Of a DNA stretch of 64,000 nt, positions 11,761-42,117 are shown one piece after another (the stretch's first letter is position 1; each line of letters starts with the position of its first letter). Position numbers and translations under genes: made by a program. The stretch spans positions 372,001 through 436,000 of the forward strand of contig NZ_CP088261.1 of the NCBI RefSeq assembly GCF_021117345.1, in the 5' to 3' direction. The notes beneath the pieces were generated by a model, which was not told the origin of the DNA, made no database searches, and saw only the letters and a program-made list of their open reading frames with translations. This DNA comes from Microbacterium sp. cx-55 (GTDB taxonomy: Bacteria; Actinomycetota; Actinomycetes; Actinomycetales; Microbacteriaceae).

Positions 11761-11836
11761 CGGAGCGAGGAGATCTGCTGGAGCAAGGGCGGATGCAGGG
11801 GTTTCGGTCCTCGCTTGAGCAGATCTCCTCGCTTCG
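11761..11836. repeat. 76-bp palindromic element, copy 1 of 3
   Basis: Left arm 11761-11788, loop 11789-11808, right arm 11809-11836. The 28-nt arms pair with four mismatches; the core AGCGAGGAGATCTGCT is perfectly inverted. The 20-nt loop GCGGATGCAGGGGTTTCGGT is almost the same in copy 3 and related in copy 2. Confidence 0.85.
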
Positions 11837-11965: not shown

Positions 11966-12041
11966 CGGAGCGAGGAGATCTGCCGAGGCGAGGGCGAATG
12001 TGGAGGTTTTGGTCCTCGCTTGCACAGATCTCCTCGCTTGG
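11966..12041. repeat. 76-bp palindromic element, copy 2 of 3
   Basis: Left arm 11966-11993, 20-nt loop 11994-12013, right arm 12014-12041, the same geometry as copy 1. The arms share the inverted AGCGAGGAGATCTG and GCGAGG blocks, with more mismatches between them. It lies 205 bp from copy 1; GGGCCGCGCCCGCGAGTGCG follows both copies. Confidence 0.8.
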
Positions 12042-12167
12042 GGCCGCGCCCGCGAGTGCGCGGGGCGTTCCGGCGGGACTGCACCCCGGCGGAACCTGCA
12101 TCCGGCGCGCTCTGCCTGCTTGGTCGAATCTGCATCCGGCGCGACCTGCTGGCCCGACGGAATCTGC

Positions 12168-27352: not shown

Positions 27353-27368
27353 GTTCGTCCTCTCCGAA

Positions 27369-27388
27369 AGTTGGTCGATCGACCAACT
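27369..27388. promoter_or_regulatory. TetR operator, 20-nt perfect palindrome
   Basis: AGTTGGTCGATCGACCAACT is a perfect palindrome located 17 nt before the start of the SDR gene, which heads the operon that encodes a TetR regulator. The length and position are typical for TetR operators. Confidence 0.82.
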
Positions 27389-27484
27389 CCGCTCATGAAA
27401 GCGCACCCGGATGCTGCTGGGCAACCCCGGGGCGCAATTCTCATCCCCCCGAAACCCCCGCGAAACCTTCGCGTCGCGCGCGCC

Positions 27485-27535
27485 CCGGCGCCCGCATCCG
27501 CCCGGCGCCCGCATCCGCCCGGCGCCCGCATCCGC
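27485..27535. repeat. three 17-bp tandem repeats
   Basis: CCGGCGCCCGCATCCGC occurs three times head to tail (27485-27501, 27502-27518, 27519-27535). It contains the abundant CCGCATCC-type word. It lies in the gap between the SDR promoter and the 73-bp palindrome; no coding role is visible. Confidence 0.75.
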
Positions 27536-27544
27536 TCGCACAAT

Positions 27545-27617
27545 CCGCGAGACGGGATCGGGGCGCCGAGACCGTGGGGTTACCCCGCTGTCTCGGCGCG
27601 AAGATCCCGTCTCGCGG
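27545..27617. repeat. 73-bp palindromic element A
   Basis: Left arm 27545-27572, 17-nt centre 27573-27589 with the mini-palindrome GGGGTTACCCC, right arm 27590-27617. The 28-nt arms pair with three mismatches. Outer block CCGCGAGAC and inner block CGCCGAGAC are kept in the element at 39281-39353. It lies 28 bp past the end of the ald gene. Confidence 0.88.
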
Positions 27618-27645
27618 AAAGGTGAGTGGCGGGAGGGGAGCGGGG

Positions 27646-28737
27646 TCAGGCGCGGGGCTTGGCGGGGAAGACGGCGGCGACGCTCGCGTTCGCGAGCCGA
27701 CCGGCGACCGTGCTGAGACCGCCGGCGAGCGCGGCGTCATCCGCGACGGCGCGCTCCCAGCCCTTGTCGGCGAGGGCGAGCGCGTAGGGCAGCGTGGCGT
27801 TCGTGAGCGCGGGGGTGGAGGTGCCGGCCGCTGCCCCGGGCATGTTCGCGACGCAGTACAGGATGGCGTCGCCGACCCGGAAGATCGGGTCGTCGTGGGT
27901 CGTGGGGCGGGAGTCCTCGAAGCATCCGCCCTGGTCGATCGCGATGTCGACGAGCACGCTGCCCGGCTTCATCCGCAGTACGAGGTCGTGTGAGACGAGC
28001 TTCGGCGCCTTCGCGCCCGGGATGAGCACCGCGCCGATCACCAGATCCGCCTCGAGCACCGATCGCTCGAGTTCGTAGGCGCTCGAGGCGACTGTCCGCA
28101 CCGCGCCGCGGTAGAGGTCGTCGATGGCGCGTAGGCGCGGCAGCGAGAGGTCCAGGACGGTGACGTCGGCGCCGAGGCCGACGGCCTGGGCGACCGCGTT
28201 CGCGCCGGCCATCCCGCCCCCGATGACGGTGACCTTCGCGGGGCGCACCCCGGGTACCCCGGCCAGCAGCACGCCGCGCCCGCCCTGCGAGCCGAGCAGG
28301 TGGTAGCCGCCGGCGAGCACGGCGAGGCGACCCGCGACCTCGCTCATTGGGGCGAGCAGGGGGAGCGACCGATCGGCGAGCTGCACGGTCTCGTACGCGA
28401 GGGCCGTGGTGCCCGCCGCCAGCAGCGCGTCGACGAGCGGCTCGTCGGCAGCGAGGTGCAGGTACGTGAACAGGGTGAGATCGGGCCGCAGGTAGCCGTA
28501 CTCGGCGGCGACGGGTTCCTTCACCTTCAGCACGAGCTCGTTGTCCCACGCGGCGGCCGCGTCGCCGAGCTGGGCGCCGGCCGCGACGAATTCCGCATCC
28601 GGGATCGCGCTTCCGGCTCCCGCGCCGGCCTGCACGGTGACGGTGTGGCCGTGGCGCACGAGCTCGTGCACTCCGGCCGGCGTCGCCGCGACGCGGTACT
28701 CGTGGTTCTTGACTTCGGCGGGAACTCCGATGCGCAT
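27646..28737 (-). CDS. ald: alanine dehydrogenase
   Basis: 363 residues, the usual length. The opening [17 protein letters not shown], the substrate-site [11 protein letters not shown] with [14 protein letters not shown], and the NAD site [21 protein letters not shown] are diagnostic. The enzyme interconverts L-alanine and pyruvate with NADH, used for alanine catabolism and redox balance. The divergent Lrp/AsnC gene is its probable regulator, as in other actinobacteria. A palindromic repeat element follows its stop. Confidence 0.95.
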
Positions 28738-28778
28738 GGTTTCTCCTCGTGTGCGGGGCCGGTCGGCGACCCGAATCT

Positions 28779-28822
28779 AGAAGAAAATCGCGGATGTGTC
28801 GCTAGCAGCCGAATAGTCTTCT
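28779..28822. promoter_or_regulatory. ald/lrp divergent promoter with AT-rich inverted repeat
   Basis: An AT-rich patch, rare in this DNA, carries AGAAGA (28779-28784) inverted as TCTTCT (28817-28822). It lies between the divergent ald and Lrp genes and probably contains Lrp binding sites and one or both promoters. Confidence 0.4.
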
Positions 28823-28852
28823 CTCACACCGCTCAGGACAGGAGGATCTGCG

Positions 28853-29374
28853 ATGAATCGCTCAACGGATGCCGGCCGCGCGCAGAAACGTCAGCTCGAT
28901 GAGATCGACGAGCGGATCCTCTGGGAGCTGCAGCGCGACGCCGATCTGACGAACGCCGCGCTCGCCGCCCGCATCGGTCTCTCGGCCTCGACCGCCCACG
29001 CGCGCGTCCGCGCGCTCCGTGCGGCGGGGGTGCTCGGCGCCTCGCGCGCCGACGTCGACCTGGCCGCCCTCGGCCTTCCCCTGCAGGCGATCGTCGCGGT
29101 GCGCCTGCGCGCCCAGGCGCGTCCGTCGATCAAGACCTACGCCGACAAGGTCGCGCGGTTGCCGAACGTGCTGAACATCTTCTTCCTCGGCGGGCAGACC
29201 GACTTCCTCATCCATGTCGCGACGACCTCGCCCGAGCAGCTCCGCGACTTCGTGGCGACGCGCCTCAGCATGGACCCCGCGGTCGCGTCGACCGAGACCC
29301 AGATCGTCTTCGACTGGGTGCGCTCGCCGGGGCGCGCCGGCGGGTTCGACGACATGCGCGACCCCATCCAGTAG
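28853..29374 (+). CDS. Lrp/AsnC-family regulator, probable regulator of ald
   Basis: 173 residues from ATG at 28853, preceded by GGAGG. The AsnC helix-turn-helix spans LDEIDERILWELQRDADLTN and AALAARIGLSASTAHARVRA. The RAM effector domain follows (LQAIVAVRLRAQARPS, LPNVLNIFFLGGQTDFLIHV). It is divergent from ald with a 115-bp promoter region, the arrangement known for AldR-type proteins that switch alanine dehydrogenase with alanine. The regulatory target is inferred from position. Confidence 0.88.
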   Translation: MNRSTDAGRAQKRQLDEIDERILWELQRDADLTNAALAARIGLSASTAHARVRALRAAGVLGASRADVDLAALGLPLQAIVAVRLRAQARPSIKTYADKVARLPNVLNIFFLGGQTDFLIHVATTSPEQLRDFVATRLSMDPAVASTETQIVFDWVRSPGRAGGFDDMRDPIQ

Positions 29375-29378
29375 CGGC

Positions 29379-30011
29379 TCAGCGCGCGGGGTCGCTCGGC
29401 GTCAGAAACCGGCGCAGCATGTCTTGCAGTTCGGCGAGCAGCGCCGCGCGTTCGCTTCCGGATGCGGCGAACGCCTCGTGCAGCACGGCGTCGGCCGAGA
29501 GGAACGCCACGCGGGCGCGCAGCTCGTCGCGACCGTCGGAGGCGAGCCCGCTGACGCGCATGAGCGTCGCGACTTTCGCCGCCATCCGCTGTCGGTGCAG
29601 GGTGCGCTCGTCGAAACCGGCCGGCGTCGTCGAGACCGCGTGCAGGGCGCGCACGGGTTGCTGGTCGAGGTAGACCCCGGCGACGGCGTCGATCACGTGC
29701 GCGACCGGATCGGCCGGGGCGGCGGAGCGCGTCGTCTGGGCGATTGCATCGTCGAGAAGCAGCTCGAGCCGGGAGTGGTAACGCGCGACGAGCGCCCGCG
29801 TGATCGCGTCGCGGTCGGGCAGGTACTGGTAGAGCGCGCCGACGCTGACGTCGGCCTCGGCGGCGACGCGCGGCAGGTTGATCGCGTCGGGTCCTTCGGT
29901 GCGGAGCAGCCGGTCGGCGGCGACGAGCGCGCGAAGGACCTTGTCGCGCGAGCGCGCTTGCGTGGGGACGCGGCGGAGCGGAAGGGCGTCCCACTCCTCG
30001 GCTGTCGTCAC
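29379..30011 (-). CDS. TetR-family regulator
   Basis: 210 residues from GTG at 30011; AGAGGA lies just upstream. Helix-turn-helix region: VPTQARSRDKVLRALVAADR, INLPRVAAEADVSVGALYQY. The C-terminal domain has no recognised ligand motif. It is divergent from the aldolase/kinase/dehydrogenase operon, with a 52-bp spacer that carries a weak inverted repeat, and is the probable repressor of that operon. Confidence 0.88.
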   Translation of the reverse strand: MTTAEEWDALPLRRVPTQARSRDKVLRALVAADRLLRTEGPDAINLPRVAAEADVSVGALYQYLPDRDAITRALVARYHSRLELLLDDAIAQTTRSAAPADPVAHVIDAVAGVYLDQQPVRALHAVSTTPAGFDERTLHRQRMAAKVATLMRVSGLASDGRDELRARVAFLSADAVLHEAFAASGSERAALLAELQDMLRRFLTPSDPAR

Positions 30012-30023
30012 GGATCCTCTAAT

Positions 30024-30042
30024 CAAACTTGACTTTGGTTTG
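30024..30042. promoter_or_regulatory. possible TetR operator
   Basis: CAAAC (30024-30028) and GTTTG (30038-30042) are inverted around TTGACTTTG in an AT-rich stretch between the divergent TetR and aldolase genes. The symmetry is only partial. Confidence 0.4.
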
Positions 30043-30063
30043 CTCGCTGCGCATGCTCACTGT

Positions 30064-30738
30064 ATGACATCGACGTCAGACATCGTCGCGTTGCGCCGAA
30101 CGGTGGCGGATGCGGCCCGCGTGCTCGCCGACCGCGACCTTCTCATCGGCACTGCCGGCAACATCAGTGCCCGCTCGGGCGACCTGGTCGCCCTCACCGC
30201 GACGGGCGCCGTGCTCGGCGAGTTGACGCCCGACCAGGTCACGATCGTGACTCTCGATGGCGCGGTCGTCGAGGGGGAGTGGGCGCCGACTTCCGAGGCG
30301 GACCTGCATCTCGGCGTGCTCCGCGCCGCGCCGCCCGGCGTCGTAGGCGCGGTCGTGCACACCCATTCCCGGTACGCGACCGCCCTGTCGATCGTGGTCG
30401 ACGAACTCCCGGTTGTGCACTATCAGCAGCTGACCCTCGGCGGCGCCCTGCGCGTCGCGGCGTTCGAGCCGTTCGGCAGTCCCGAGCTCGCGCGCGCCGT
30501 GGGCGGCGCTCTCGACGGGCGGCTGGCGGCGTTGATGGCCAACCACGGCGCCGTCGCGCTGGGCGCCGACCTCGCCCGCGCCGTCGAGAACGCGCTGCTG
30601 GTCGAATGGCTCTGCGAGTTGTACTGGCGTGCGCGGGCGATCGGCGAACCGCGGGCGCTGGATGGTGCCGCGCAGCGCGCCGTCATCGAGGCGGCGACGC
30701 GCCGCGGCTACGGCACGACCCAGAGGATCGTTCCGTGA
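30064..30738 (+). CDS. class II aldolase/adducin-family protein
   Basis: 224 residues from ATG at 30064. The metal-binding motif HTHSRYATAL (two His near 101 and 103) and the later ANHGAVALGADLARA (third His) are present, and the acid in SEADLHLGVL fits the catalytic Glu. The TAGNISARSGDL start is typical of L-fuculose-1-phosphate or L-ribulose-5-phosphate type enzymes. The gene leads an operon with an APH-type kinase and a GlpD-like dehydrogenase, so its substrate is probably a phosphorylated sugar or polyol-derived ketose. Confidence 0.85.
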   Translation: MTSTSDIVALRRTVADAARVLADRDLLIGTAGNISARSGDLVALTATGAVLGELTPDQVTIVTLDGAVVEGEWAPTSEADLHLGVLRAAPPGVVGAVVHTHSRYATALSIVVDELPVVHYQQLTLGGALRVAAFEPFGSPELARAVGGALDGRLAALMANHGAVALGADLARAVENALLVEWLCELYWRARAIGEPRALDGAAQRAVIEAATRRGYGTTQRIVP

Positions 30739-31580
30739 GCGCCCCGATCGCGCGCGGGCGGTCCTCCGAAGTGTTCGCCGATGACCCCGGGCACGTCGTG
30801 AAGCTCTACTTCGCCGGCGCCGACGAGGTCGAGGTCGACCGCGAGGTGCGCGACTCGCGGACCGTGCACGCGCTCGGCATCACCCCGGTGCGCTGCTACG
30901 GGCGGGTCGAGCGCGACGGCCGGCACGGCATCGTGTTCGACCGGATCGACGGCATCCCGCTGACCACGGTCGCCGAACGCAACATTCTGCGGCTTCCCGA
31001 GGTGGGACGAACCCTCGCTGACGAGCACGTGGCGGTGCACGCCGCGCACACCACCGAGCTGCAGGATGTGCGTGCGCTCGCGCTCGCCCAGATCGACAAG
31101 CCCTCGTTCGCGGCGTTGACGATCGCCGAACGAGAGTCCCTCCGGGCGCACCTGCGGTCGCTGCCCGACGGCGATGCCGTGCTGCACCTCGACTTCCACC
31201 CCCAGAACGTGTTCGTACTGGCGGATCGGAACGTCGTGATCGACTGGCAGACCGCCGTCTCCGGTGACCCTGCGGCCGACGTCGCCCTCACCTGCCTGCT
31301 CTTCCGGGAGGCGGAACTCTTCCCGGGAACCTCGGCCCCCATGCGCGTCGTCTACGCGGCGGTCAGGCGTGTCCTGCTGCGCCACTACCTCGCGGAGTAT
31401 CTGCGTCGCAGCACCGTCACCCCCGCGCAGATCGAGCGCTGGACGACAGCCGCGCGCGTGCTGCGGCTCGGCCTGCTCGATGTCGCGTCGGAGCGCGAGC
31501 GGATGCTGGCCGGCATCCGTCGCGACCTCGCCGCCCGTGCGTCGGCCCAGGGTCCGGCACGATCGGCGTCGGCGTCGTGA
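30735..31580 (+). CDS. APH-fold small-molecule kinase
   Basis: 281 residues from GTG at 30735, overlapping the aldolase stop as GTGA. The catalytic loop VLHLDFHPQNVFVLA (HxDxxxxN) and the metal Asp in VVIDWQTAV are standard for aminoglycoside-phosphotransferase-fold kinases. Its position between an aldolase and a glycerol-3-phosphate-dehydrogenase-like gene suggests phosphorylation of a polyol or sugar (as in methylthioribose kinase, which has this fold) instead of an antibiotic. The substrate is unknown. Confidence 0.82.
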   Translation: MSAPIARGRSSEVFADDPGHVVKLYFAGADEVEVDREVRDSRTVHALGITPVRCYGRVERDGRHGIVFDRIDGIPLTTVAERNILRLPEVGRTLADEHVAVHAAHTTELQDVRALALAQIDKPSFAALTIAERESLRAHLRSLPDGDAVLHLDFHPQNVFVLADRNVVIDWQTAVSGDPAADVALTCLLFREAELFPGTSAPMRVVYAAVRRVLLRHYLAEYLRRSTVTPAQIERWTTAARVLRLGLLDVASERERMLAGIRRDLAARASAQGPARSASAS

Positions 31581-33193
31581 GTGCCCCGTTCGCCCGTCGC
31601 CTGCCCGGTTCGCCGGTCGACCTGCTCATCATCGGGGCGGGGATCACCGGGACGGCTCTCGCCTACGAGGCCGCGAGCCGGGGCCTCCGCGTCGCGGTCG
31701 TGGACGCCGGTGACATCGGCGGTCGCACGTCGGCGGCGACCGGCAAACTCATCCACGGCGGCCTCCGGTATCTGAAGAACTTCGAGGTCGGCCTCGTCCG
31801 CGAGTCCCTTGCCGAGCGCCGCACGCTCATGCGCATCGCTCCGCACCTCGTCGAACCCGTCGGCATGGTGCTGCCCGACCCGGGACTCATCGAGCACGTG
31901 GGGCTCACGGCCTACGACGTGCTCTCGTTCGACCGCAACCGCATCCCGGATCCGGCCAAGCGCATCCCCGCGCACCGGGTGCTCTCCCGGGGGCAGCTCG
32001 ATGCGCGCGGTCTCGCGCACGTGGGCCGCGGCATCCTCTACTACGACGCCATGATGTATTCACCCGAGCGGCTGACGTTCGCCTTCGCGCGCACCGCGCA
32101 GCAGCACGGTGCCACCTTCTCGACCTATACCCGCGCCGAGCGACTGCTCGTGCGGGGTTCGCGGGTCGAGGGGGCGCGGGTGCACGACGCCGTCACCGGA
32201 TGCACGCACGACGTTCGCGCGACCGTGACGGTGAACGCGGCGGGGCCCTGGTCGCACGATCTGCTCAGCAGCACGCCGGAGCTGCTGCCGCTCGCCGGAC
32301 CCGCGCCGCGCGTGCGCTCGGAGGGCATCTACCTCGTCACGCGGCCCCTCACCCGCACGATGGTGCTCACGGTGTCGGGGCACGGCCACTTCAGCGTCGC
32401 ACCGTGGCGCGGGCACAGCCTCATCGGCCCCACCGAGACCCCGTACTCCGGCGCGGTCGGCGACTGGCGCCTTACGCGCGAGTCGATCGAGCGACTCGTG
32501 GATGCGGTCAACGCCGGCGCGAATCTGCCCGAACGACTCGCCATCGACGACGTCGTGGCGGCGTACGGGGGGTTGCGCCCGCTCTCCGAGTCGTCGGGCG
32601 ACGACACGTACCGGGCCTCTCGATCATCCGAACTCGTCGACCATGCGAAAGGCGGCGTCGACGGATTGCTCTCGGCGGTGGGCGGCAAATACACGAACTC
32701 CCGCGCCTTCGCCGAGAAGGTCGTCGACCGGCTCGGGCGGCGGGCGGGACTCGGGGCCGCGCGGAGCGTCAGTGCGCGCACTCCGCTGTTCGGTGGCGAC
32801 ATCGCCGACATCGGCTCGGCCCGCGCCGCGATCGTGCCGGATGCGGCCGCAGCCTCCGTCGCCGCCGACACCGCCGATCTCCTGCTGCGCCACTACGGCA
32901 CCCAGGCCCGCGAGGTGCTCGCGCTCATGAGCGAGGACCCGAGGCTTGCCGAACGGGCGACGCCCGACGGCGAACCGCTCGCCACCGTCGCCTACGCGGT
33001 GCGGCAGGAATCTCCCGTGCACCTGACCGACGTGCTCCTGCGCCGCACGGGGATCGGCCACCTCGGAGACCCCGGGGACCGGATCCTCGGGATGGCCGCC
33101 GACATCGCGGCCGAGCATCTGGGCTGGGATGCCGGGCGCCGCCGCACCGAACTCGATGCCGCCCGCCGCGCCGTGCGGCTGCCGGTGGACTGA
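31577..33193 (+). CDS. FAD-dependent glycerol-3-phosphate-dehydrogenase-like enzyme
   Basis: 538 residues; the start overlaps the kinase stop as GTGA. The FAD site LLIIGAGITGTALAYEAASR is at 16-35, and KLIHGGLRYLKNFEVGLVRE is a strong GlpD signature. Further matches are YYDAMMYSPERLTFAFARTA and VAPWRGHSLIGPTET. The C-terminal GlpD domain follows SAVGGKYTNSRAFAEKVVD. GlpD oxidises sn-glycerol-3-phosphate to DHAP at the membrane; here linkage to an aldolase and APH-type kinase suggests a related polyol phosphate. A second, housekeeping glpD could exist elsewhere. Confidence 0.87.
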   Translation: MSAPFARRLPGSPVDLLIIGAGITGTALAYEAASRGLRVAVVDAGDIGGRTSAATGKLIHGGLRYLKNFEVGLVRESLAERRTLMRIAPHLVEPVGMVLPDPGLIEHVGLTAYDVLSFDRNRIPDPAKRIPAHRVLSRGQLDARGLAHVGRGILYYDAMMYSPERLTFAFARTAQQHGATFSTYTRAERLLVRGSRVEGARVHDAVTGCTHDVRATVTVNAAGPWSHDLLSSTPELLPLAGPAPRVRSEGIYLVTRPLTRTMVLTVSGHGHFSVAPWRGHSLIGPTETPYSGAVGDWRLTRESIERLVDAVNAGANLPERLAIDDVVAAYGGLRPLSESSGDDTYRASRSSELVDHAKGGVDGLLSAVGGKYTNSRAFAEKVVDRLGRRAGLGAARSVSARTPLFGGDIADIGSARAAIVPDAAAASVAADTADLLLRHYGTQAREVLALMSEDPRLAERATPDGEPLATVAYAVRQESPVHLTDVLLRRTGIGHLGDPGDRILGMAADIAAEHLGWDAGRRRTELDAARRAVRLPVD

Positions 33194-33199
33194 GCGGGC

Positions 33200-34429
33200 T
33201 CAGCGCAGGCGGAGCACCGCGTCCCACAGCGCGTCGGCGACCTCGCGCTTCGTGCCGGTCACGGATGCGGGCTGCGCGTCGTCGTGCGCGTCGCCGTGCG
33301 CGTCGCGGGTGAGGAGCAGCAGCGTGTTGTCGGTGGTCTCAAAGCCGCGATCCCAGCCGACCTCGTTGACGGCGAGGAGGTCCACGCCTTTCCGTTCCCG
33401 CTTTCGCGCGGCCCGCGCGAGCAGTTCGTCGCCGGTCGCGGTCTCGGCGGCGAAGCCGACGATCGTCTGTCCGGGGCGCCGCTCCGCGACCAGCCCCGCG
33501 ACGATGTCGGGGTTCTCCACGAGCTCGAGCGTGCGCGTGCCGTCGCCGGACTCCTTCGTGAGCTTCCGCTCCGACACGGCGGCGACGCGGTAATCGGCGA
33601 CGGCCGCGGCCATCACCACGACATCGGCGTGGGTCGCCGCATCCGTCGTCGCGCTCTGCAGCTCCGTCGCCGTCCCGACGTCCGTCACCCGGATGCGGGG
33701 ATCGGCGGATGCGGTCGCCCGCACATCCGCGTCGAGGTGGGCCGCGATCAGGTGCACGTCGGCGCCGCGATCGGCCGCGGCGAGCGCCACCGCGAGGCCC
33801 TGCCGCCCGCTCGATCGGTTTCCGAGGAAGCGCACCGGGTCGATGGGTTCGCGGGTGCCGCCCGCGGTGACGGCAATGCGGAGCCCGGCCAGATCCTGGC
33901 GCAAGGGGGCGGCCACCTCGAGGGCGAATCGCACGATGCTTTCCGGTTCGCTCATGCGCCCGGGCCCGCTGTCGCCGCCGGTGAGTGCGCCGTCCTCCGG
34001 TCCGATCACGCGCACGCCGCGGGCGCGGAGGGTCTCGATGTTGGCGACGGTCGCCGGATGACGCCACATCTCGCTGTGCATCGCCGGCGCGACGACGACC
34101 GGCGCGACCGTGGCGAGCAGCGTCGTGCCGAGCAGATCATCGGCGATACCGGCCGCCATCTTGGCGAGGGTGTTCGCGGTCGCCGGGGCGATGATCACGA
34201 GGTCGGCGTGCTGGCCGAGCGCCACGTGACGCACCTGCGGAACATCGTCGTGCAGCGATGTCGTGACGGGGTTGCGGCTGATGGCCTCCCACGTGGGCAG
34301 GCCGACGAACCGCAGCGCCCCCTCGGTCGGGATGACATGCACCTCGTGGCCCCCGCGGATGAGGTCGCGAACGAGCGATACGGTTTTGTACGCGGCGATT
34401 CCACCGGTGACTCCGACGACGACGAACAC
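33200..34429 (-). CDS. coaBC: bifunctional phosphopantothenoylcysteine decarboxylase/phosphopantothenate-cysteine ligase
   Basis: 409 residues from GTG at 34429, full length. The CoaC half starts VVVGVTGGIAAYKTVSLVRD, with the active-site His in WRHPATVANI, the Asn in APATANTLAKM and APAMHSEMW. The CoaB half starts near 185: RIAVTAGGTREPIDPVRFLG, NRSSGRQGLAVA, and the lid KLTKESGDGTRTLELVENPD. It carries out two successive steps of coenzyme A synthesis from 4'-phosphopantothenate. It is convergent with the GlpD-like gene. Confidence 0.95.
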   Translation of the reverse strand: MFVVVGVTGGIAAYKTVSLVRDLIRGGHEVHVIPTEGALRFVGLPTWEAISRNPVTTSLHDDVPQVRHVALGQHADLVIIAPATANTLAKMAAGIADDLLGTTLLATVAPVVVAPAMHSEMWRHPATVANIETLRARGVRVIGPEDGALTGGDSGPGRMSEPESIVRFALEVAAPLRQDLAGLRIAVTAGGTREPIDPVRFLGNRSSGRQGLAVALAAADRGADVHLIAAHLDADVRATASADPRIRVTDVGTATELQSATTDAATHADVVVMAAAVADYRVAAVSERKLTKESGDGTRTLELVENPDIVAGLVAERRPGQTIVGFAAETATGDELLARAARKRERKGVDLLAVNEVGWDRGFETTDNTLLLLTRDAHGDAHDDAQPASVTGTKREVADALWDAVLRLR

Positions 34430-34472
34430 GGCATGATTCTCGCACGCGACGCGTCCGCCCGAAGGAGACCCG

Positions 34473-35186
34473 ATGTGCACCGTGATCGTCCGCGTCCCCG
34501 AGAACCCGGACGCCCCGACGCGCCTGATCGCGATACGCGATGAGGATCCGGGTCGCCCCTGGAATCCCGTGGGGCCGTGGTGGCCGGACGCGTTTCCGGG
34601 AGTGCTCGGCGTGCACGACGTGCGGGCCGGCGGTGCATGGTTGGCCGCCGACCCGGGCGCGGGGCGGCTGGCCGTGCTGCTGAACCGGCACGACGACGGT
34701 TCGCTTCCCGACGCGGATGCCGTCTCTCGCGGCATCCTGCCGCTCGCTTCCGTGGCGGGCTCGCCGCCCGGTGAGGCGCCGCGCACGCGCGGCTTCAACC
34801 TGCTCGAGATCGACGGGGCGGCATCCCGCGTGGTGTCCTGGGATGGCGTTCGGCGCGGGGTCACCGAGCTCGCGCCGGGAACCCACATGATCGCCCACGA
34901 CGACCTCGACGACCCCCGCACGGCCCGCATCACGCGCTGGCTGCCCGAGTTCACCGCCGCAGACACGGATGCGGCGGGCGCATGGTGGGCGCCGTGGCTC
35001 GGCGTGATCGAGCGGAGCACCGCGCTCGCCGCGACCGACGACCGCGCCATCATCCGCGATCACCGGCATCTCGGCATCCCCACGCTCTCGCTCCTCATCT
35101 GCGTGGCGAGCGTGCGCTCCCACGGCGTGGAGCTCCGAGATGCCACCCTCCCCGCGCCTGGAACGTGGGGGCCGCTCACGTTCTGA
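34473..35186 (+). CDS. NRDE-family protein (TANGO2-like)
   Basis: 237 residues from ATG at 34473; AAGGAGA precedes it. The start MCTVIVRVPENPDAPTRLIA and the following RDEDPGRPWNP match the NRDE family with its conserved N-terminal Cys, which becomes the N-terminal residue and may be catalytic as in Ntn hydrolases. The eukaryotic relative TANGO2 is linked to heme or lipid handling; the bacterial role is unknown. Divergent from coaBC. Confidence 0.85.
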   Translation: MCTVIVRVPENPDAPTRLIAIRDEDPGRPWNPVGPWWPDAFPGVLGVHDVRAGGAWLAADPGAGRLAVLLNRHDDGSLPDADAVSRGILPLASVAGSPPGEAPRTRGFNLLEIDGAASRVVSWDGVRRGVTELAPGTHMIAHDDLDDPRTARITRWLPEFTAADTDAAGAWWAPWLGVIERSTALAATDDRAIIRDHRHLGIPTLSLLICVASVRSHGVELRDATLPAPGTWGPLTF

Positions 35187-35258
35187 GTGGCTGCCAGCCG
35201 CGCGACGCGAGAGGATGGGGCGGGCCCGCTCAGAAGGCGGGCTCACCCAGGAGGAAAC

Positions 35259-35645
35259 ATGATCATCGTCGGGCTCGTTTTCGCGGCACTCGCCGCGCTG
35301 CTGCACGTCTACATCTTCTGGCTCGAGTCGATCGCCTGGACGAGCGATCGCGCGCGGCGCACCTTCGGGACGACCCCGCAGGAGGCGCAGGCGACGCGGT
35401 CGCTTGCGTTCAACCAGGGCTTCTACAACCTGTTCTTGGCGATCGCGGCCGCGCTCGGAATCGTGTTCTTCGCCGCCGGTGCCACGGCGATCGGGGCGAC
35501 GCTCGTCTTCGTCGGGACGGGCTCGATGGTCGCGGCCGCGCTCGTGCTCCTCCTGTCGGACCGTTCGAAGACGCGTGCGGCGCTCACGCAGATGGCCTTC
35601 GCGGTGATCGCTGTCGTCGCGCTGGCCGTGGGGATCGCCCTCTGA
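35259..35645 (+). CDS. DUF1304 membrane protein
   Basis: 128 residues from ATG at 35259 with a strong AGGAGG upstream. There are four hydrophobic segments. The region LLHVYIFWLESIAW and the later SLAFNQGFYNLFLAIAAALG are characteristic of the DUF1304 family of small membrane proteins. The function is unknown. It follows the NRDE gene on the same strand by 72 bp and may share its transcript. Confidence 0.85.
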   Translation: MIIVGLVFAALAALLHVYIFWLESIAWTSDRARRTFGTTPQEAQATRSLAFNQGFYNLFLAIAAALGIVFFAAGATAIGATLVFVGTGSMVAAALVLLLSDRSKTRAALTQMAFAVIAVVALAVGIAL

Positions 35646-35673
35646 TCCGACGCCCTCGGGGCGTGGGGCCCCG

Positions 35674-36015
35674 TCAGGGGGTGGGGGTTGCGGCGGGCGG
35701 CCGGTCCGGTGCGGGGGCGAAGTGCTCCGCGACGAGCATGATGCCACCCGACGAGTTCGCGGAGTTGGCGAGCTCTTCGATCCACTCGCGGCTCAGCATC
35801 GCCGGCTCGGGGTCGTCGAAGACGAAGCGCAGCGGAATCGACGGATGCAGCCACAGCGTGCTGCGGCCGCGGGGCTGATCGTCCGGGTGCCGCCACGAGA
35901 GCGTGAAGCTCTCGCCCCGGCGGAGCTTCGTTGAGAGAACCACCTTCAGGTGTGCCAGGGCACGGTCCTCGATATGGATCGGAGTGCTGCCCCCGCCGTA
36001 GTAGATCGTGCCCAT
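35674..36015 (-). CDS. small Microbacteriaceae-type protein (DUF7882-like), paralogue 1
   Basis: 113 residues from ATG at 36015. The start MGTIYYGGGSTPIHIEDRAL, the motif KLRRGESFTLSW and LWLHPSIPLRFVFDD are shared with the protein encoded divergently at 36076-36393. Such proteins are common in this family and have sometimes been labelled as DNA-ligase domains, without support that I can see here. There is no membrane segment or signal; it is probably cytosolic. The shared sequence is beta-rich, and the C-terminus is disordered and Pro-rich. Function unknown. Confidence 0.75.
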   Translation of the reverse strand: MGTIYYGGGSTPIHIEDRALAHLKVVLSTKLRRGESFTLSWRHPDDQPRGRSTLWLHPSIPLRFVFDDPEPAMLSREWIEELANSANSSGGIMLVAEHFAPAPDRPPAATPTP

Positions 36016-36075
36016 GCGATCACCCTAGCCGGGGGCGCACCCGGTAGCGCGGGTCGCGTGGCCTATGCTCGTGCC

Positions 36076-36393
36076 GTGGGCCGATTCATCTATGACACGA
36101 ACGCGAACGCGGTCGACATCGAAGACCGTACGCTTTCGCACCTGCGGATCGTGGTGATGAACAAGCTCCGTCGTGGCGAGCCCTTCATGTTCGATGTCGA
36201 GATCGGCGACGGCAGCGGGCGCCGCAGCTTCTGGGTGCACCCGTCGGTTCCCATGCAGTTCCACTTCTACGGCAGTCGTCAGCCGAAGATCAACCGGGCC
36301 TGGATCGAAGATCTGATGCTGGCCGCATCCGGACCCGCCGGACTCACGATCGTGCCCGAACCGCCGGACGAGCCGGTGGAACAGACGGCCTAG
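36076..36393 (+). CDS. small Microbacteriaceae-type protein (DUF7882-like), paralogue 2
   Basis: 105 residues from GTG at 36076. It aligns along its whole length with the divergent neighbour: VDIEDRTLSHLRIVVMNKLR, FWVHPSVPMQFHFYG and RAWIEDLMLAASGPAGLTI. Positions shared by both are IEDR, HL, KLRRGE and HPS.P. The pair is separated by 60 bp containing both promoters. Identity is moderate, so the duplication is old and the roles may differ. Function unknown. Confidence 0.72.
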   Translation: MGRFIYDTNANAVDIEDRTLSHLRIVVMNKLRRGEPFMFDVEIGDGSGRRSFWVHPSVPMQFHFYGSRQPKINRAWIEDLMLAASGPAGLTIVPEPPDEPVEQTA

Positions 36394-36421
36394 TAGCAGC
36401 GATTCCCGGCGCGTCCGGGTT

Positions 36422-36436
36422 GTCAAGGGGTCGGAC
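36422..36436 (+). promoter_or_regulatory. GTCAAG-type upstream motif before the small ORF
   Basis: GTCAAGGGGTCGGAC lies 57 nt before the 44-residue ORF. GTCAAG followed by a C/G run and GAC also precedes glgX (42151) and the TspO-like gene (49948). It may be a promoter part. Confidence 0.3.
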
Positions 36437-36484
36437 CGCGCCCGCCGCTGAGGCAAGGTGGGAACCGCCCCAGGAGGTGGTGCC

Positions 36485-36619
36485 ATGCTCGCCGGACCCG
36501 AAGACGTCGTGCCCGAGAACCCGCTGACGTCCCTCGAATTCGAAGACGTCCCCGGCATCGACGTCGTCGACGGCGAATTCCTCCCGCGGAGCGGCTTCGA
36601 TCCGCTCTCCCCGCGCTGA
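36485..36619 (+). CDS. 44-residue acidic small protein with a strong ribosome site
   Basis: ATG at 36485, TGA at 36617-36619. AGGAGGTGG sits 5 nt upstream, one of the best Shine-Dalgarno sequences in the window. The protein starts MLAGPEDVVPENPLT and contains FEDVPGIDVVDGEF; about a quarter of the residues are Asp or Glu and there are no Cys or His. Third codon positions are nearly all G or C, as in real genes here. No family is recognised. It could be a genuine small protein of unknown role. Confidence 0.6.
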   Translation: MLAGPEDVVPENPLTSLEFEDVPGIDVVDGEFLPRSGFDPLSPR

Positions 36620-36641
36620 ACGCATCCCCACCGATTCCGGG

Positions 36642-36703
36642 GCGCGCCAGTTTTCTGCTGCCGCTCCACAGATCTGAGGCGCGGGAGCAGGAAACTGGCG
36701 CGC
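36642..36703. repeat. 62-bp palindromic element with 28-nt arms
   Basis: Left arm 36642-36669, loop AGATCT (36670-36675), right arm 36676-36703. Outer GCGCGCCAGTTT and inner CTGCT, CCGC, CC blocks pair with four mismatches. It sits between the convergent small ORF and ROK repressor genes. The arm length equals that of the other palindromic elements although the sequence differs. Confidence 0.8.
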
Positions 36704-36763
36704 GGCGCGCGGTGAGTGCAGAGAAGTGGCGCGCCGGATCGGGGCAAGCCGGCGGATGCGGGG

Positions 36764-37939
36764 TCAGCCGGCGGATGCGGGGTCGGCGAGCAGGGGTTCG
36801 AAGGCCGCCTCGGCGGCACCGATCAGGAGCCGGTCGTCGGCGAGCGACGCGAGGCGCAGATCGAGGGACTCCGCACAGGCGGGCATTGCCTGACCGCGGA
36901 CGGCGGCGGTGAGCCCCGGAAGATCGCTCGATGCCAGCGCGGCGAGGAACCCGCCGAGCACCACGACCGACGGGTTCAGCACGTTCACCGCGTTGGCGAG
37001 CGCAGTGCTGAGGATGCGGCGCTGCCGGTCGCGTTCGGCGCGGGCAGTGGGCGCGGACGTCGTCTGCAGCGCGCGGGCGAGGGCGTGGTCGTCCGCATCC
37101 GTCGCGGAGCCGCCGAGCGCCGCGAGCAGCCGCGCGCGCCCGACTTCGTCTTCGAGCACCCCGCCGGGAGCCCGGCGATCGGAGGCGTCCTCGATGCCGG
37201 GGCGATTCTGGCCGAACTCGCCGGCGTATCCGCCCGCGCCGCCGAGCATCGTGCCGTGGGCGATCACCCCGCCGCCGATACCGCTGGCGCCGCCGTTGAG
37301 GTAGATCACGTCGGCGTGGCCGCGGGCGGCGCCGAAGAGGTGCTCCGCGCGGGCGCCGAGGCTCGCGTCGTTGCCGACCGTGGTCGGGAGCCCGGCCGCC
37401 GACTGTACGAGGGCGGCAAGGGGGGCATCGCGCCAGCGCAGGTGCGGCGCGTCGCGGACGACCCCGTCGCTCGTGCGCACGAGACCCGGCACGGCGACAC
37501 CGACGCCGACGATCCGGTGGTTGGCAAGCGCCCCCGCACGCCACTGCGCGATGCGGTCGGCGATCGCCGCCGCGGCGACCTCCGGCGAGGGTGCGTCGCG
37601 CCAGGGGATCCGTACGCGCGCGACGACGGAACGATCGAGCGTCACGGCCGCGAGGGTCAGCGCATCGATCTCGGGGTGCGCCGCGATCGCGACCGCGGAG
37701 CCGCTGGTCACCACGACCGGCGACGGGCGGCCGGCGCGGCGCGCAGCATCCGGAGCCCGTTCCTCGACCAGCCCGAGCGCGGCGAGTTCGCCCACGAGGT
37801 CTCCGATCGTGGACCGGTTCAACCCCGTCTCCTCGGTGAGCGCCGCGCGTGAGCGGGGCCCGTCGAGATGCAGGAGCGTGAGCACGCGGGCGAGATTGCG
37901 CTGCCGCACGGATGTCGCGCTCGCCCCGGTGGTGGTCAT
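36764..37939 (-). CDS. xylR: ROK-family transcriptional repressor of xylose genes
   Basis: 391 residues from ATG at 37939. The winged helix is at 10-75 ([40 protein letters not shown]). The ROK domain includes [28 protein letters not shown] and YAGEFGQNR. It is divergent from xylA with a 74-bp spacer that holds an inverted repeat. XylR-type ROK proteins release DNA on binding xylose. The name rests on context with xylA and xylB. Confidence 0.88.
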
Positions 37940-37950
37940 CCTCCCAGTGT

Positions 37951-37975
37951 AGTATGTTGGCGAGCACAACTTATT
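37951..37975. promoter_or_regulatory. candidate XylR operator
   Basis: AGTATGTTG (37951-37959) and CAACTTATT (37967-37975) are inverted around a 7-nt centre with two mismatches in nine pairs. It lies between the divergent repressor and xylA genes, in a stretch that is unusually AT-rich. Confidence 0.55.
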
Positions 37976-38013
37976 CGGGTGCACCCCGCCCCGCACATTC
38001 GCAAAGGAGCGTC

Positions 38014-39201
38014 ATGTCTTCACCCACGCGCGACGACAAATTCTCGTTCGGCCTCTGGACCGTCGGCTACAACGGCACCGACCCGTTCGGTGGGCCCACC
38101 CGGCCGCCGCTCGACGTCGTGCACGCGGTCGAGAAGCTCTCGGAGTTGGGGGCGTACGGGCTCACGTTCCACGACGACGACCTCTTCGCCTTCGGCTCGT
38201 CGGAGACCGAACGGCAGACCCAGATCGATCGCCTCAAGGGCGCGCTCGAGGACACCGGGCTCATCATTCCGATGGTCACCACGAACCTCTTCTCCGCCCC
38301 GGTGTTCAAAGACGGCGGGTTCACCGCGAACGACCGGGACGTGCGCCGGTTCGCCCTGCGCAAGGTGTTCCGCCAGCTCGACCTCGGTGCCGAACTCGGC
38401 GCGAAGACCTTCGTCATGTGGGGTGGCCGCGAGGGCGCCGAGTACGACTCCGCGAAGGATGTTCGCGCCGCGCTCGAGCGGTACCGCGAGGCCGTCAACC
38501 TGCTCGGCGACTACGTCACCGACAAGGGGTACGACATCCGCTTCGCGATCGAACCGAAGCCCAACGAGCCGCGCGGCGACATCCTGCTGCCGACGCTCGG
38601 CCATGCGATCGCGTTCATCGACTCGCTCGAGCGCCCCGAGCTCGTCGGCGTCAACCCCGAGGTCGGCCACGAGCAGATGGCCGGGCTGAACTTCGCCGCG
38701 GGCATCGCGCAGGCGCTCTTCCACGGCAAGCTCTTCCACATCGACCTGAACGGTCAACGCGGCATCAAGTACGACCAGGACCTCGTCTTCGGGCACGGCG
38801 ACCTGCACAACGCCTTCGCGCTCGTCGACCTGCTCGAGAACGGCGGACCCGGCGGAGTGCCCGCCTACGACGGCCCGCGGCACTTCGACTACAAGCCGAG
38901 CCGCACCGAGGATGAGAAGGGCGTGGGGGAGTCGGCCGCGGCCAATATGCGCACCTACCTGCTGCTCAAGGAGCGCGCGGCGGCCTTCCGCGCCGACCCC
39001 GAGGTGCAGGAGGCGCTCGAGGCGGCACGGGTCGCCGAGCTCTCGGTGCCCACGCTCCACGAGGGAGAGTCCTATGACGACTTCCTCGCCGATCGTTCGG
39101 CCTACGAGGACTTCGACGCCGACGTGTACCTGGGCGGCAAGGGTGGCGGCTTCGTGCGCCTGCAGCAACTCGCGACCGAGCACCTGCTCGGCGCTCGCTG
39201 A
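38014..39201 (+). CDS. xylA: xylose isomerase
   Basis: 395 residues from ATG at 38014, with AAAGGAG upstream; the length is that of the short actinobacterial class. Active-site features: [13 protein letters not shown] (catalytic His), [18 protein letters not shown] (metal Glu and Lys), [14 protein letters not shown] (His), [20 protein letters not shown] (metal Asp). It converts D-xylose to D-xylulose and, in this class, also glucose to fructose. It is the first gene of xylose use; xylB follows after 224 bp with a palindromic element in between. Confidence 0.96.
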
Positions 39202-39225
39202 CCGCATCCGCCCGGCCCTGCCTAG

Positions 39226-39280
39226 CCCTTCCCCGACCCTTCCCCAACCCTTCCCCAACCCTTCCCCGACCCTTCCCCGA
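39226..39280. repeat. five 11-bp tandem repeats between xylA and xylB
   Basis: CCCTTCCCCRA occurs five times in a row (39226-39280), directly next to the 73-bp palindromic element. It is low complexity and may be slippage-prone. Confidence 0.8.
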
Positions 39281-39353
39281 CCGCGAGACTGGATCTTCGC
39301 GCCGAGACAGTGGGGTAACCCCGACGTTTCGGCGCGAAGATCCCGTCTCGCGG
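39281..39353. repeat. 73-bp palindromic element B
   Basis: Left arm 39281-39308, centre 39309-39325 with GGGGTAACCCC, right arm 39326-39353. The 28-nt arms pair with two mismatches. It has the same size, outer block CCGCGAGAC and inner block CGCCGAGAC as the element at 27545-27617. It lies between xylA and xylB. Confidence 0.9.
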
Positions 39354-39425
39354 GTAATCGCGCGGGCGGGAGGGCCGCGGGAGGGTCGGGGCCGGGGGAG
39401 AACGCACGAAGGAAGGAGAGCGCGG

Positions 39426-40730
39426 ATGGCGCTCGTCATGGGAGTCGACTCGTCGACCCAGTCCTGCAAGGTCATCGTCGTCGACAGTGCGACGGGGGCG
39501 ATCGTCCGCGAAGGGCGGTCGCCGCATCCGGACGGCACCGAGGTGGACCCGGATGCATGGTGGGTCGCGCTGCAGGCGGCGATCGCGGAGGCGGGCGGGC
39601 TGTCCGGCGTCGATGCGTGGGCGGTCGGCGGGCAGCAGCACGGCATGGTGGCGCTGGATGCGGAGGGCCGCGTCATCCGTCCGGCGCTGCTCTGGAACGA
39701 CACCCGCTCGGGCGGTGCGGCCGCCGACCTCATCGCGGAGTTCGGGGCCGACCTGCTCGCCCGGCGCACGGGCCTCGTGCCGGTGGCCTCGTTCACGATC
39801 ACGAAGCTGCGCTGGCTGCGCGATCACGAGCCCGAGAACGCCGCGCGCGTCGCCGCCGTCGCGCTGCCGCACGATTGGCTGACCTGGCGCCTGCGCGGCT
39901 TCGGGCCCGACGGCGAATCCGCGCACGGCCCGGTGCTCGACGAACTCATCACCGACCGCTCCGATGCGTCGGGCACGGGATACTGGTCGCCCGACACGGG
40001 CGGCTACGACCGCGAGCTGCTCGTCGCGGCGCTCGGTCATGACGCGGTGTTGCCGCGCGTGCTCGGACCGGAGGGGTGGGTGACGGATGCGGACGGCCGC
40101 CGCGTCGGCCCCGGCGCGGGCGATAACGCGGGCGCGGCGCTCGGCGTCGGCGCGGGTCCGGGCGATGTGGTCGTGTCGATCGGAACCAGCGGCACGGTGT
40201 TCGCGGTGAGTGCGGAGCGGACGATCGACCCGACCGGCACGGTCGCGGGATTCGCGGATGCGGACGGCCACTTCCTGCCGATCGTCGTCACGCTGAACGC
40301 CGCCCGCGTGCTGGACGCCATCGCGCGCCTGCTCGGCACCGACCACGCGGGTCTGAGCGCGCTCGCGCTCGCCGCCGAGCCGGGCGCCGGCGGGCTGCTG
40401 CTCGAGCCGTACTTCGAGGGGGAGCGCACCCCCAACCTGCCGGATGCGAACGCCTCGCTGTACGGCATGACGCTCGCCTCGACGACGCGCGAGAACCTCG
40501 CGCGCGCGGCGGTCGAGGGGATGCTGCACGGTCTCGGTGCGGGGCTCGACGCCCTGCGTGAGCTCGGCGTTCCGCTCGAGCGGGCGCTCCTGATCGGCGG
40601 GGGCGCGCAGTCCGAGGCGGTGCGCCGCGTCGCGCCGCTGATCTTCGGTATGCCCGTCGAGGTGCCCGCACCCGGCGAGTACGTGGCGCTCGGCGCCGCC
40701 CGCCAGGCCGCCCGGCTGCTCACCGCCTGA
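39426..40730 (+). CDS. xylB: xylulokinase
   Basis: 434 residues from ATG at 39426, with AAGGAGAG upstream. FGGY-kinase features: [19 protein letters not shown], the [11 protein letters not shown] substrate loop, [21 protein letters not shown] with the catalytic Asp, and the C-terminal [17 protein letters not shown]. It phosphorylates D-xylulose to xylulose-5-phosphate for the pentose phosphate pathway. The protein is somewhat short for XylB (often about 470-490). The palindromic element between xylA and xylB could lower its expression relative to xylA. Confidence 0.92.
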
Positions 40731-40756
40731 CCCCCTCCCCGACTGACCCCCATCGA

Positions 40757-40829
40757 CCGCGAGACTGCAGCTGCGCAACGAGACGTTGGCTCGGAGCCGC
40801 GGTCTCGTTGCGAGAATGCTGTCTCGCGG
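40757..40829. repeat. 73-bp palindromic element C
   Basis: Left arm 40757-40784, centre 40785-40801 with GGCTCGGAGCC, right arm 40802-40829. Same 73-bp length, outer CCGCGAGAC and GAGAC inner end as elements A and B. The inner stem is CAACGAGAC/GTCTCGTTG, not CGCCGAGAC/GTCTCGGCG, so paired positions changed together. Five mismatches are all in the middle of the arms. Confidence 0.87.
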
Positions 40830-40896
40830 TCGGCCAGGAGCGGCGAGCCCCCGCACTCCCAGCGCCCGCCGAAGTGGGGCACCTAGGGTCGAGGGC

Positions 40897-41577
40897 ATGA
40901 CCATCCCGCTCGATGACGGGCAGATCACGGTTTCCGCCGTCGAACTGCGTGCCGCACGCGATGAACTGCAGCGGTTCCTCCTGGAGTACCGATTCGGGAT
41001 GCAGGAGATCGAGACGAAGCTCTCGATCCTTCGCGACGAGTTCCTCCTGATGCACGAGTACAACCCGATCGAGCACGTGTCGAGCCGGGTCAAGACCCCT
41101 GACAGCCTGGTCGACAAGGTGCGCCGGAAGGGGATCGACCCCGGGTTCGAGTCGATCCGGGCGCACATCACCGACATCGCCGGTGTGCGCGTGACGTGCA
41201 GTTTCACCGCCGACGCCTACCGGCTATTCGACCTGCTCACGCAGCAGGACGACATCACCGTCCGCGAGGTGAAGGACTACATCGCGGCGCCCAAGCCGAA
41301 CGGCTACAAGAGTCTGCACGCGATCGTCGAAGTGCCGGTCTTCCTGTCGACGGGGCCCATGCGGGTGCCGGTCGAGGTGCAGTTCCGCACCATTGCGATG
41401 GACTTCTGGGCGAGCCTCGAGCACAAGATCTACTACAAGTACGACCGGCAGGTGCCGGGGCGCCTGATCGACGAGCTGAAGGATGCGGCCGACAACGCCG
41501 CCGCTCTCGATGACCGGATGGAGCGCCTGCACCGCGAACTGCACGGCCCGCGCCCTCCGCACACCCTGCACGTCTGA
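40897..41577 (+). CDS. small alarmone synthetase (GTP pyrophosphokinase family)
   Basis: 226 residues from ATG at 40897, preceded by GAGGG. It contains only the synthetase domain: IEHVSSRVKTPDSLVDKVRR, FESIRAHITDIAGVRVTCSF, PKPNGYKSLHAIVEVPVF (catalytic loop) and VEVQFRTIAMDFWASLEHKI. There is no HD hydrolase, TGS or ACT domain, so it makes ppGpp or pppGpp without a hydrolysis function. It would add to the stringent response alongside a Rel protein elsewhere. Confidence 0.9.
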   Translation: MTIPLDDGQITVSAVELRAARDELQRFLLEYRFGMQEIETKLSILRDEFLLMHEYNPIEHVSSRVKTPDSLVDKVRRKGIDPGFESIRAHITDIAGVRVTCSFTADAYRLFDLLTQQDDITVREVKDYIAAPKPNGYKSLHAIVEVPVFLSTGPMRVPVEVQFRTIAMDFWASLEHKIYYKYDRQVPGRLIDELKDAADNAAALDDRMERLHRELHGPRPPHTLHV

Positions 41578-41628
41578 TCGCCCACGGGGAACCGCGAGCG
41601 GTGGCCGCAGACGCGGCACAATGAGGAC

Positions 41629-42117
41629 ATGAGCGAGGTCGAGGAGCTGTTCGCGGACGCCCGCCGCGCGCTCGCCGACCTGCCCACGGAGAACCTCGGC
41701 CAGTGGACCACGCCGCGCCGCATCCTGGGTGTGCCGCGCGCGCCGCGGGTCGCCCCGGCCGGCACCGCCTGGCATCTCGGGGTCCTGCTCGTGACGGACG
41801 ATGCGGTGCTCGGCACGGGAGACATCATCCGCGCCCGGGAGGAGGTGCGGCGGGGCTTCGCCGCCGAGTCCCAGCGTGAGCGCGCGGCGATCGCCGCGGC
41901 CGCCTTCCGCGGAGGGTTTCCCGAGGGGGTGGCCGTCCACATCGGGTGGACTGTGCTCGACCCGTCCGCGCTGGATCGCGGCGCCGCATCCGGCCCGCTG
42001 GCGGTTTGCGACGGACGCCCGGCCGTGCGCTGGAGCGCGTCGGGCGGGTACCAGCCGCTCGAGGGATATCTCCGCGAACGCATCGCCCTGCTCCGCACGC
42101 CGCCCGAGCGCGCGTAG
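41629..42117 (+). CDS. conserved hypothetical protein
   Basis: 162 residues from ATG at 41629. It opens with MSEVEELFADARRALADL, continues with PAGTAWHLGVLLVTDDAVLG and RAREEVRRGFAAESQRERAA, and ends in YQPLEGYLRERIALLR. Codon use is normal and it has a single short hydrophobic patch, so it is probably cytosolic. I do not recognise the family. It lies between the alarmone synthetase (51 bp upstream) and the trehalose operon (78 bp downstream) on the same strand. Confidence 0.65.
   Translation: MSEVEELFADARRALADLPTENLGQWTTPRRILGVPRAPRVAPAGTAWHLGVLLVTDDAVLGTGDIIRAREEVRRGFAAESQRERAAIAAAAFRGGFPEGVAVHIGWTVLDPSALDRGAASGPLAVCDGRPAVRWSASGGYQPLEGYLRERIALLRTPPERA

Follow-up and report, generated by a model that had tools for sequence, protein, structure and literature searches.

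The 64,000-nucleotide stretch of the Microbacterium sp. cx-55 chromosome analysed here (the window) contains three palindromes of exactly 73 bp, each lying just past the end of a gene, which raises the question of what kind of element they are. An earlier reading made from the sequence alone had described these palindromes, and their coordinates and ends (CCGCGAGAC...GTCTCGCGG) proved exact; the largest count of such 73-bp palindromes in 100 shuffled sequences was 0. The elements, together with the outer words of the second one, are located as follows.

27545..27617, no strand: CGAGAC-family palindrome of subfamily A (centre GGGGTTACCCC), 28 nt beyond the stop codon of ald
39281..39353, no strand: CGAGAC-family palindrome of subfamily A, between xylA and xylB
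39284..39289, plus strand: outer CGAGAC word in the left arm of the 39281 element; the inner word lies at 39303-39308, 19 nt on
39345..39350, minus strand: outer CGAGAC word in the right arm of the 39281 element; the inner word of that arm is degenerate
40757..40829, no strand: CGAGAC-family palindrome of subfamily B (centre GGCTCGGAGCC), 26 nt beyond the stop codon of xylB

The position past gene ends was likewise confirmed, at 28 nt after the ald stop, 79 nt after xylA and 26 nt after xylB, where the distances come from a home-made gene finder and the gene names from the sequence-only reading. The name xylB is backed by relatives, the nearest named ones being from M. ulmi and M. ureisolvens (85%); for ald, the comparison shows only a protein with relatives. 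This protein (27646-28737) has a single close relative among 68 genomes (84%, in G035), all other matches being at 70% or below, and gene transfer may account for this pattern. All three elements give a long hairpin on either strand, with z-scores of -6.8 to -12.5 against shuffles. A known RNA family was rejected as an explanation, since a search of the 64-kb window with Rfam 15 gave 0 matches above the gathering score. A different palindrome of 62 bp (GCGCGCCAGTTTTCTGCTGCC...) is located at 36642-36703 within the convergent gap 36619-36763, and a related-looking one at L295:6056.

Each half-element consists of CCG, the word CGAGAC, a spacer, a second CGAGAC 19 nt from the first, a further spacer and the centre, so that the word occurs twice per arm as direct copies while the arms are inverted. 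The proposed layout of four words per element holds, except that the element at 39281 carries three exact words and one degenerate word (GTTTCG on the plus strand). The description as a 28-nt arm, a 17-nt centre and a 28-nt arm gives the correct length of 73 bp and hides two weakly paired stretches, at arm positions 16-18 and 29-31. In the third element (40757) the stem change CAACGAGAC/GTCTCGTTG is matched on the opposite strand, as had been claimed.

The suggestion that these palindromes form a multi-copy intergenic family was borne out by a search of the genome. The strict outer pattern occurs in 48 copies genome-wide (reversed-pattern control 0), and a covariance model built from 28 copies recovered at least 66 full-length elements in the 3.27-Mb chromosome, a lower bound, as 150 of 8036 candidates were scored. 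Sixty-two copies measure exactly 73 bp and were divided by the similarity of their centre to GGGGTAACCCC into subfamilies A (37) and B (25). Of the 66 copies, 49 start with an exact CCGCGAG and end with an exact CTCGCGG.

In the alignment of 28 copies, the claim of covariation was sustained in part, with three of five measures above those of all slid versions. Paired cells amounted to 90.6%, compared to 83.7 in controls, 70 cells were altered on both sides, compared to 38.4 in shuffles, and the covariation score was 0.177, compared to 0.071 in controls; on the other two measures, 8 pairs with double-sided change and 22 pair types, the alignment and the shuffles were equal. Palindromicity is kept through changes on both sides, and the multi-site layout is likewise supported. 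In subfamily B, positions 20-22 are all paired in 9 of 25 copies when 4.0 would be expected (P = 0.004). None of the 37 subfamily A copies has its central spacer (29-31/43-45) paired throughout (4.8 expected); this spacer forms 37 of 111 pairs (53.3 expected), and at position 29 the arms are identical in 4 of 37 copies versus 12.1 expected (P = 0.001, for one among many positions tested). Avoidance of pairing at the centre reached no significance in subfamily B or in the 62 copies pooled. Between the words, pairing dips at arm positions 17-18, to 0.35 and 0.40 in this genome and to 0.50 and 0.50 in the elements of other families described below.

The exact CGAGAC layout was found in 19 of 118 genomes, all of them Microbacterium (71 of the genomes, including the own one), with a reversed control of 0, and the filler between the words varies with the species. 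A family-wide draw of 249 genomes contained it in three, namely the own genome, G283 of another genus (10 copies) and G188 (1 copy). A version of the layout with TAAAC words, which serves as a negative control, occurred in 0 of the 249 genomes, a sign that the words of L090, L092 and L104 are rare.

The genome also harbours palindromes of similar layout built from other words. The sister family F2, with GCGAGGA words at an 18-nt pitch, has 10 strict copies in the genome, two of which lie in the window.

11767..11830 (G000:383767-383830), no strand: F2 core with GCGAGGAGATC words; the whole palindrome spans about 11760-11837, in the convergent gap 11647-12403
11972..12035 (G000:383972-384035), no strand: second F2 copy, in the same convergent gap 11647-12403

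This family (GAGGAGATC) has, besides its 10 copies here, five in G008 and single matches in six other genomes, of which at least those in G005, G077 and G081 look chance-like by eye. A private GATTCGGAGATG family, built from GATTCGGA words at an 18-nt pitch, is present in 10 copies here and is absent from 67 other genomes, and in Agreia TGTTGCC words at 19 nt form three strict copies. Agreia (L186-L201) also contains numerous CGTTCCCTGAGCTTGTCGAAGGG inverted repeats that are REP-like in look.

Comparable sites were examined in other species. Between xylA and xylB, palindromes of the same layout with other letters were detected by the lag test in L038, L042, L047, L049 and L055; L072 also has such an other-letter palindrome, and those of L036 and L051 were seen by eye only. 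Among the 38 of 44 loci for which a stop codon was obtained, the median xylA-xylB gap is 16 nt where a strong palindrome is lacking (20 loci) and 125 or 147 nt where one is present (18 loci). At the 3' end of glmS, a palindrome whose arms repeat at 18-20 nt is present in 7 of 30 loci, the own one included; two of these use CGAGAC and five other words, one of the five (L336) being of low complexity. Another palindrome is present in 5 of the 30 loci, and 18 have none above a score of 14 (one just at 14). The glmS gap of L309 measures 80 nt, compared to 84 nt here when the element is subtracted (157-73). Occupancy of the sites therefore differs between species.

Palindromes of further kinds were noticed at the same loci. 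Those of about 60 bp in L273, L277, L279, L281, L039 and L044 have GTGTCCAAGACACGC-like or CGCCAAGACACGCC-like arms without the 19-nt pitch, and are common to several species at ald and xylA-xylB loci. Similar TGACTTG..CTATATGT-like arms occur in palindromes of different species (L331 and L040), located at the ends of glmS and xylA, and TGTCCCACTTT palindromes of about 51-65 bp are present in this genome and in another Microbacterium (L295:9418, L303:6058, L052).

In a word-agnostic scan for arm repeats within palindromes, with shuffled arms as the null, a lag of 19 was shown by 15 of 48 distinct palindromes at xylB loci of Microbacteriaceae (null mean 0.92, maximum 4) and by 0 of 17 at xylB loci of other families (families sorted by hand). 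The same lag was obtained at glmS loci (4 of 8), at ald loci (3 of 13, some outside Microbacterium) and in 400 kb of Agreia (5 of 22). Control stretches of this genome, which contain none of the 66 copies, gave lag 19 in 3 and lag 18 in 5 of 11 palindromes. Four other Microbacterium genomes (400 kb) had lag 19 in 1 of 17 palindromes, and other families (320 kb) had it in 1 of 16.

A core pattern, CGAG-N15-CGAG-N10-40-CTCG-N15-CTCG, has matches in 124 of the 297 genomes that represent the order. Seven groups comprising 138 genomes contribute 687 places versus 65 for the reversed pattern, as summed by hand from counts in which some matches overlap (as in G379, G389 and G481; G481, of f14, has a control of 12). 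Forward and reversed counts were 187 and 5 in Microbacterium (13 of 13 genomes with a match), 14 and 5 in other Microbacteriaceae (10 genomes) and, at 23 genomes each, 50 and 1 in f3, 37 and 4 in f7, 188 and 15 in f9, 161 and 26 in f14, and 50 and 9 in f18. The copies are concentrated, with five or more in 36 of the 138 genomes. The remaining 159 genomes have 55 places versus 32 reversed, so single matches there are mostly due to chance.

As the pattern itself selects for CGAG and for the 19-nt pitch, neither is independent evidence in these genomes; the span and the identity of the extensions are. Among the 95 places listed, which are a part of the matches, 74 span 67 or 68 bp, when 31 spans from 56 to 86 were allowed, and the others span 56-66, 71, 76 or 86 bp. 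For 42 elements from eight genomes, picked for many listed copies spanning 67 or 68 bp (only spans of 60-75 were kept), agreement between the outer and the inner word is 0.76-0.95 for offsets +4 to +9 and 0.31-0.45 for +10 to +14, and the identity of outer and inner extensions is 0.86 within an element versus 0.51 between elements. In the cx-55 genome the shared word is shorter, with outer/inner identity high up to offset +5. Words in other genomes include CGAGGTAGAC (G472), CGAGTTCGC (G393), CGAGATCGAC (G485), CGAGTTCGGG (G468, G584) and CGAGATGCGAC (G584), and G543 alone has four, CGAGTGCGG, CGAGTCAGAC, CGAGCTCGTA and CGAGGTAGTA. In one gap of G393, two near-identical CGAGTTCGC elements lie 215 bp apart (L344:1124 and 1339). 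All four core matches listed for G083 (f14) span 60 bp and are perhaps a shorter variant of the core layout.

The elements had been taken for a Microbacteriaceae oddity, but the CGAGAC elements are one family of a large, apparently undescribed superfamily of about 73-bp four-word palindromes that lie mostly at gene ends and are seen in several families of the order. Its unit is a word mostly starting with CGAG and followed by a family-specific extension, short (AC) in the CGAGAC family and of about six bases in the other families fetched, which is present four times per element. A typical core has 67 or 68 bp and a pitch of 19, sometimes 18, with weak pairing between the words and at the centre. 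The geometry is nearly fixed, the elements are present in numerous copies, and the words turn over between species. The sequence-only reading knew of no described Microbacteriaceae element of such form, and a literature search by titles and abstract beginnings, with most subscription journals outside its coverage, gave none either among the papers listed.

We regard it as an even bet that, overall, this is a REPIN-like superfamily of non-autonomous repeats that is copied by a trans-acting protein and has settled at gene 3' ends. Such a protein (a nuclease, a recombinase or a transposase-like enzyme) would read the word at all four sites, possibly on a folded strand, and would copy the element into new intergenic places; a change in its specificity would favour new words simultaneously at the four sites. 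Between and after genes, copies would persist since they do little harm there, and they may be useful as hairpins at which transcripts from either direction terminate or are protected. Equal words in four sites and in dozens of copies, which differ between species and families, point to a trans-acting factor that reads the word, and the fixed pitch and narrow span suggest one complex reading all four sites. The weakly paired stretch between the words, common to different families, speaks for a folded strand rather than for plain double-strand binding, and private families and unoccupied sites speak for copying, a mechanism that we infer. The preference for 3' ends and the mirrored C-rich flanks described below are compatible with a function in transcript termination or protection, either as the only one or as a later use.

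The gene context was determined with the home-made codon-usage gene finder trained on the window. Of the 66 copies, 64 are intergenic (29 in convergent, 28 in codirectional and 7 in divergent gaps) and two overlap a predicted reading frame, whereas control gaps of at least 40 nt, which include the window with its three copies, comprise 19 convergent, 79 codirectional and 31 divergent ones (P = 1.5e-5; P = 1.4e-4 for the convergent versus divergent contrast). In this genome, CGAGAC copies favour gene 3' ends and are depleted between divergent genes. Where copies lie in convergent or codirectional gaps, the preceding 60 nt show C contents of 0.40-0.54 and G contents of 0.17-0.32 per ten-base bin, mirrored after the copy, and the tilt is much weaker at mid-gap controls (C 0.35-0.37, G 0.31-0.32). 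Double-word palindromes of other words show a smaller tilt (C 0.44, G 0.29 before), and other palindromes have 0.39 and 0.32. Two of the 42 elements of other families overlap a predicted frame; the 40 intergenic ones divide into 14 convergent, 24 codirectional and 2 divergent, here without a matched control.

These distributions would also be expected if the palindromes were host-function elements, that is, two-way terminators or hairpins protecting 3' ends, which are selected at gene ends and whose letters drift under a kept fold. Rut sites consist of C-rich, G-poor RNA, and RNA of this kind precedes the strong hairpins from either side. However, a scan for T-run terminators from 27000 to 42000 revealed none at the three elements and one terminator-like site in these 15 kb; across the copies, the sequence downstream is G-rich and lacks a T-run. 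Stem mismatches on the transcribed strand of codirectional copies comprise 20 G-U and 17 A-C, a rough balance that leaves selection on RNA unsupported and does not favour a purely RNA-level reading. A terminator needs neither the word pitch nor four equal words, a strong palindrome is missing at the glmS end in 18 of 30 species, and in the seven divergent gaps the C-rich flank is limited to about 30 nt. We therefore consider a host function possible, with a probability well below that of copying.

Four equal words at a fixed pitch could also constitute an immobile target for a host DNA-binding protein, nucleoid-associated or chromosome-organising, with one oligomer occupying four sites. In agreement with such a role, the word CGAGAC taken singly is not over-represented across the 64-kb window (89 occurrences versus 112 expected), and copies are denser toward the contig start, where genes resembling dnaA, dnaN, recF and gyrB were recognised by eye, 45% of the copies lying in that quarter of each half which is closest to it (KS P = 1.4e-4). 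This bias, however, owes much to 20 of the 66 copies in a single 200-kb bin (G000:3.0-3.2 Mb). Several word families in one genome, some of them private, are not expected for such a target, and plain double-strand binding gives no reason for the shared weakly paired stretch, which makes this explanation unlikely.

The ends of Tn402/Tn5090-type transposons carry tandem 19-bp transposase sites, and a MITE of such a DDE transposon would account for two direct sites per end at a 19-bp pitch, for the inversion of the ends and for subfamily A arms that differ at set positions. Despite many near-identical copies, however, no target-site duplication was evident, direct flank repeats being near chance (k of at least 4 in at most 1 of 66 copies at offsets 0-6), and among the genes between close copy pairs neither a transposase nor a parent transposon was recognised by eye; this origin is quite improbable. 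Homogenisation of palindromes by mutation alone (template switching), in the absence of selection or a protein, would yield symmetric change without RNA-strand bias and is very unlikely on its own, as it leaves unexplained the equal words in one arm, the narrow span, the multi-copy spread and the positions kept unpaired.

Other mobile origins were also considered. The transposase search of the genomes covered PF01797, the Y1 transposase family of RAYT, which is absent from the own genome and has a match in 4 of 118 genomes, and a RAYT-driven REP was rejected on this ground. A phage or plasmid origin was rejected because the 39281 copy has no BLAST match at E 0.01 in phage and plasmid collections and the exact CGAGAC layout does not occur in viral contigs. 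The loose core gave 11 matches in viral contigs; nine of them pair at 12-16 of 30 arm positions and look like chance matches, that of L383 (20 positions) is doubtful, and the palindrome at L386:342-409 (24 positions) may be real, perhaps a prophage-borne copy.

Returning to copying by a trans-acting protein, several observations weigh against it: no copying protein was found, and there is neither a RAYT nor a target-site duplication; lag 19 is scarce in other Microbacterium genomes (1/17) and in other families (1/16); and the unpaired centre lacks significance in subfamily B and in the pooled 62 copies. Also, the presence of palindromes of some kind between xylA and xylB in many species fits a host function as well. 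More tentatively, the superfamily might be a genome parasite or a domesticated system, in which proteins of a diversifying family recognise CGAG and a changeable extension at four sites of a folded hairpin, about 73 bp long, and copy it without target duplication, recurrent new specificities giving rise to several independent word families of nearly equal geometry in one genome.

Bacterial palindromic repeats are best understood where they are accompanied by a RAYT transposase, and the elements described here are an actinobacterial class without RAYT in the genome studied. Their tight geometry, with words that turn over between species and within-genome families, provides a natural series for recogniser-site coevolution and a route toward finding the recogniser. 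They are also candidates for a two-way transcript-end system in a high-GC genome.

With bidirectional intrinsic terminators the elements share a location after genes and a strong, symmetric GC hairpin; they differ in the missing T-run, in the four-word layout and in copies shared as families. Like MITEs, they are small, apparently non-autonomous and bounded by terminal inverted repeats, with variable site occupancy; unlike MITEs they show no target-site duplication, and no parent element was seen among the genes between close copy pairs. Neisseria DNA uptake sequences consist of a lineage-specific word that occurs as inverted pairs after genes, a likeness that extends to the present elements; a DUS-like word was rejected here, since CGAGAC lacks over-representation in the window. 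Integron attC sites act as a folded strand with two boxes per arm and unpaired spacers, features that recur here, whereas the boxes of the present elements are direct rather than inverted within an arm, have a pitch of 18-19 and belong to copies that are dispersed singly.

The closest likeness is to REP/REPIN repeats with RAYT transposases, which the passages on REP and RAYT in PMC3116915 and PMC3733652 describe as short, multi-copy, extragenic hairpin doublets with a lineage-specific word; the string 'actinobacteri' does not occur in these passages. In contrast to REP/REPIN as described there, our elements carry two words per arm at an 18-19-nt pitch, keep to about 73 bp across several bacterial families and have no RAYT in this genome; also, within 8 nt outside either end, GTAG (on either strand) occurs in 0 and CGTC (on either strand) in 3 of 66 copies, which amounts to the absence of a foot tag. 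As they fail the tag and RAYT tests, they are not filed as REPIN, but they work in a REPIN-like manner, sharing with the repeats of those passages the form of short, multi-copy, extragenic inverted-doublet hairpins, several families per genome and a word that depends on the lineage.
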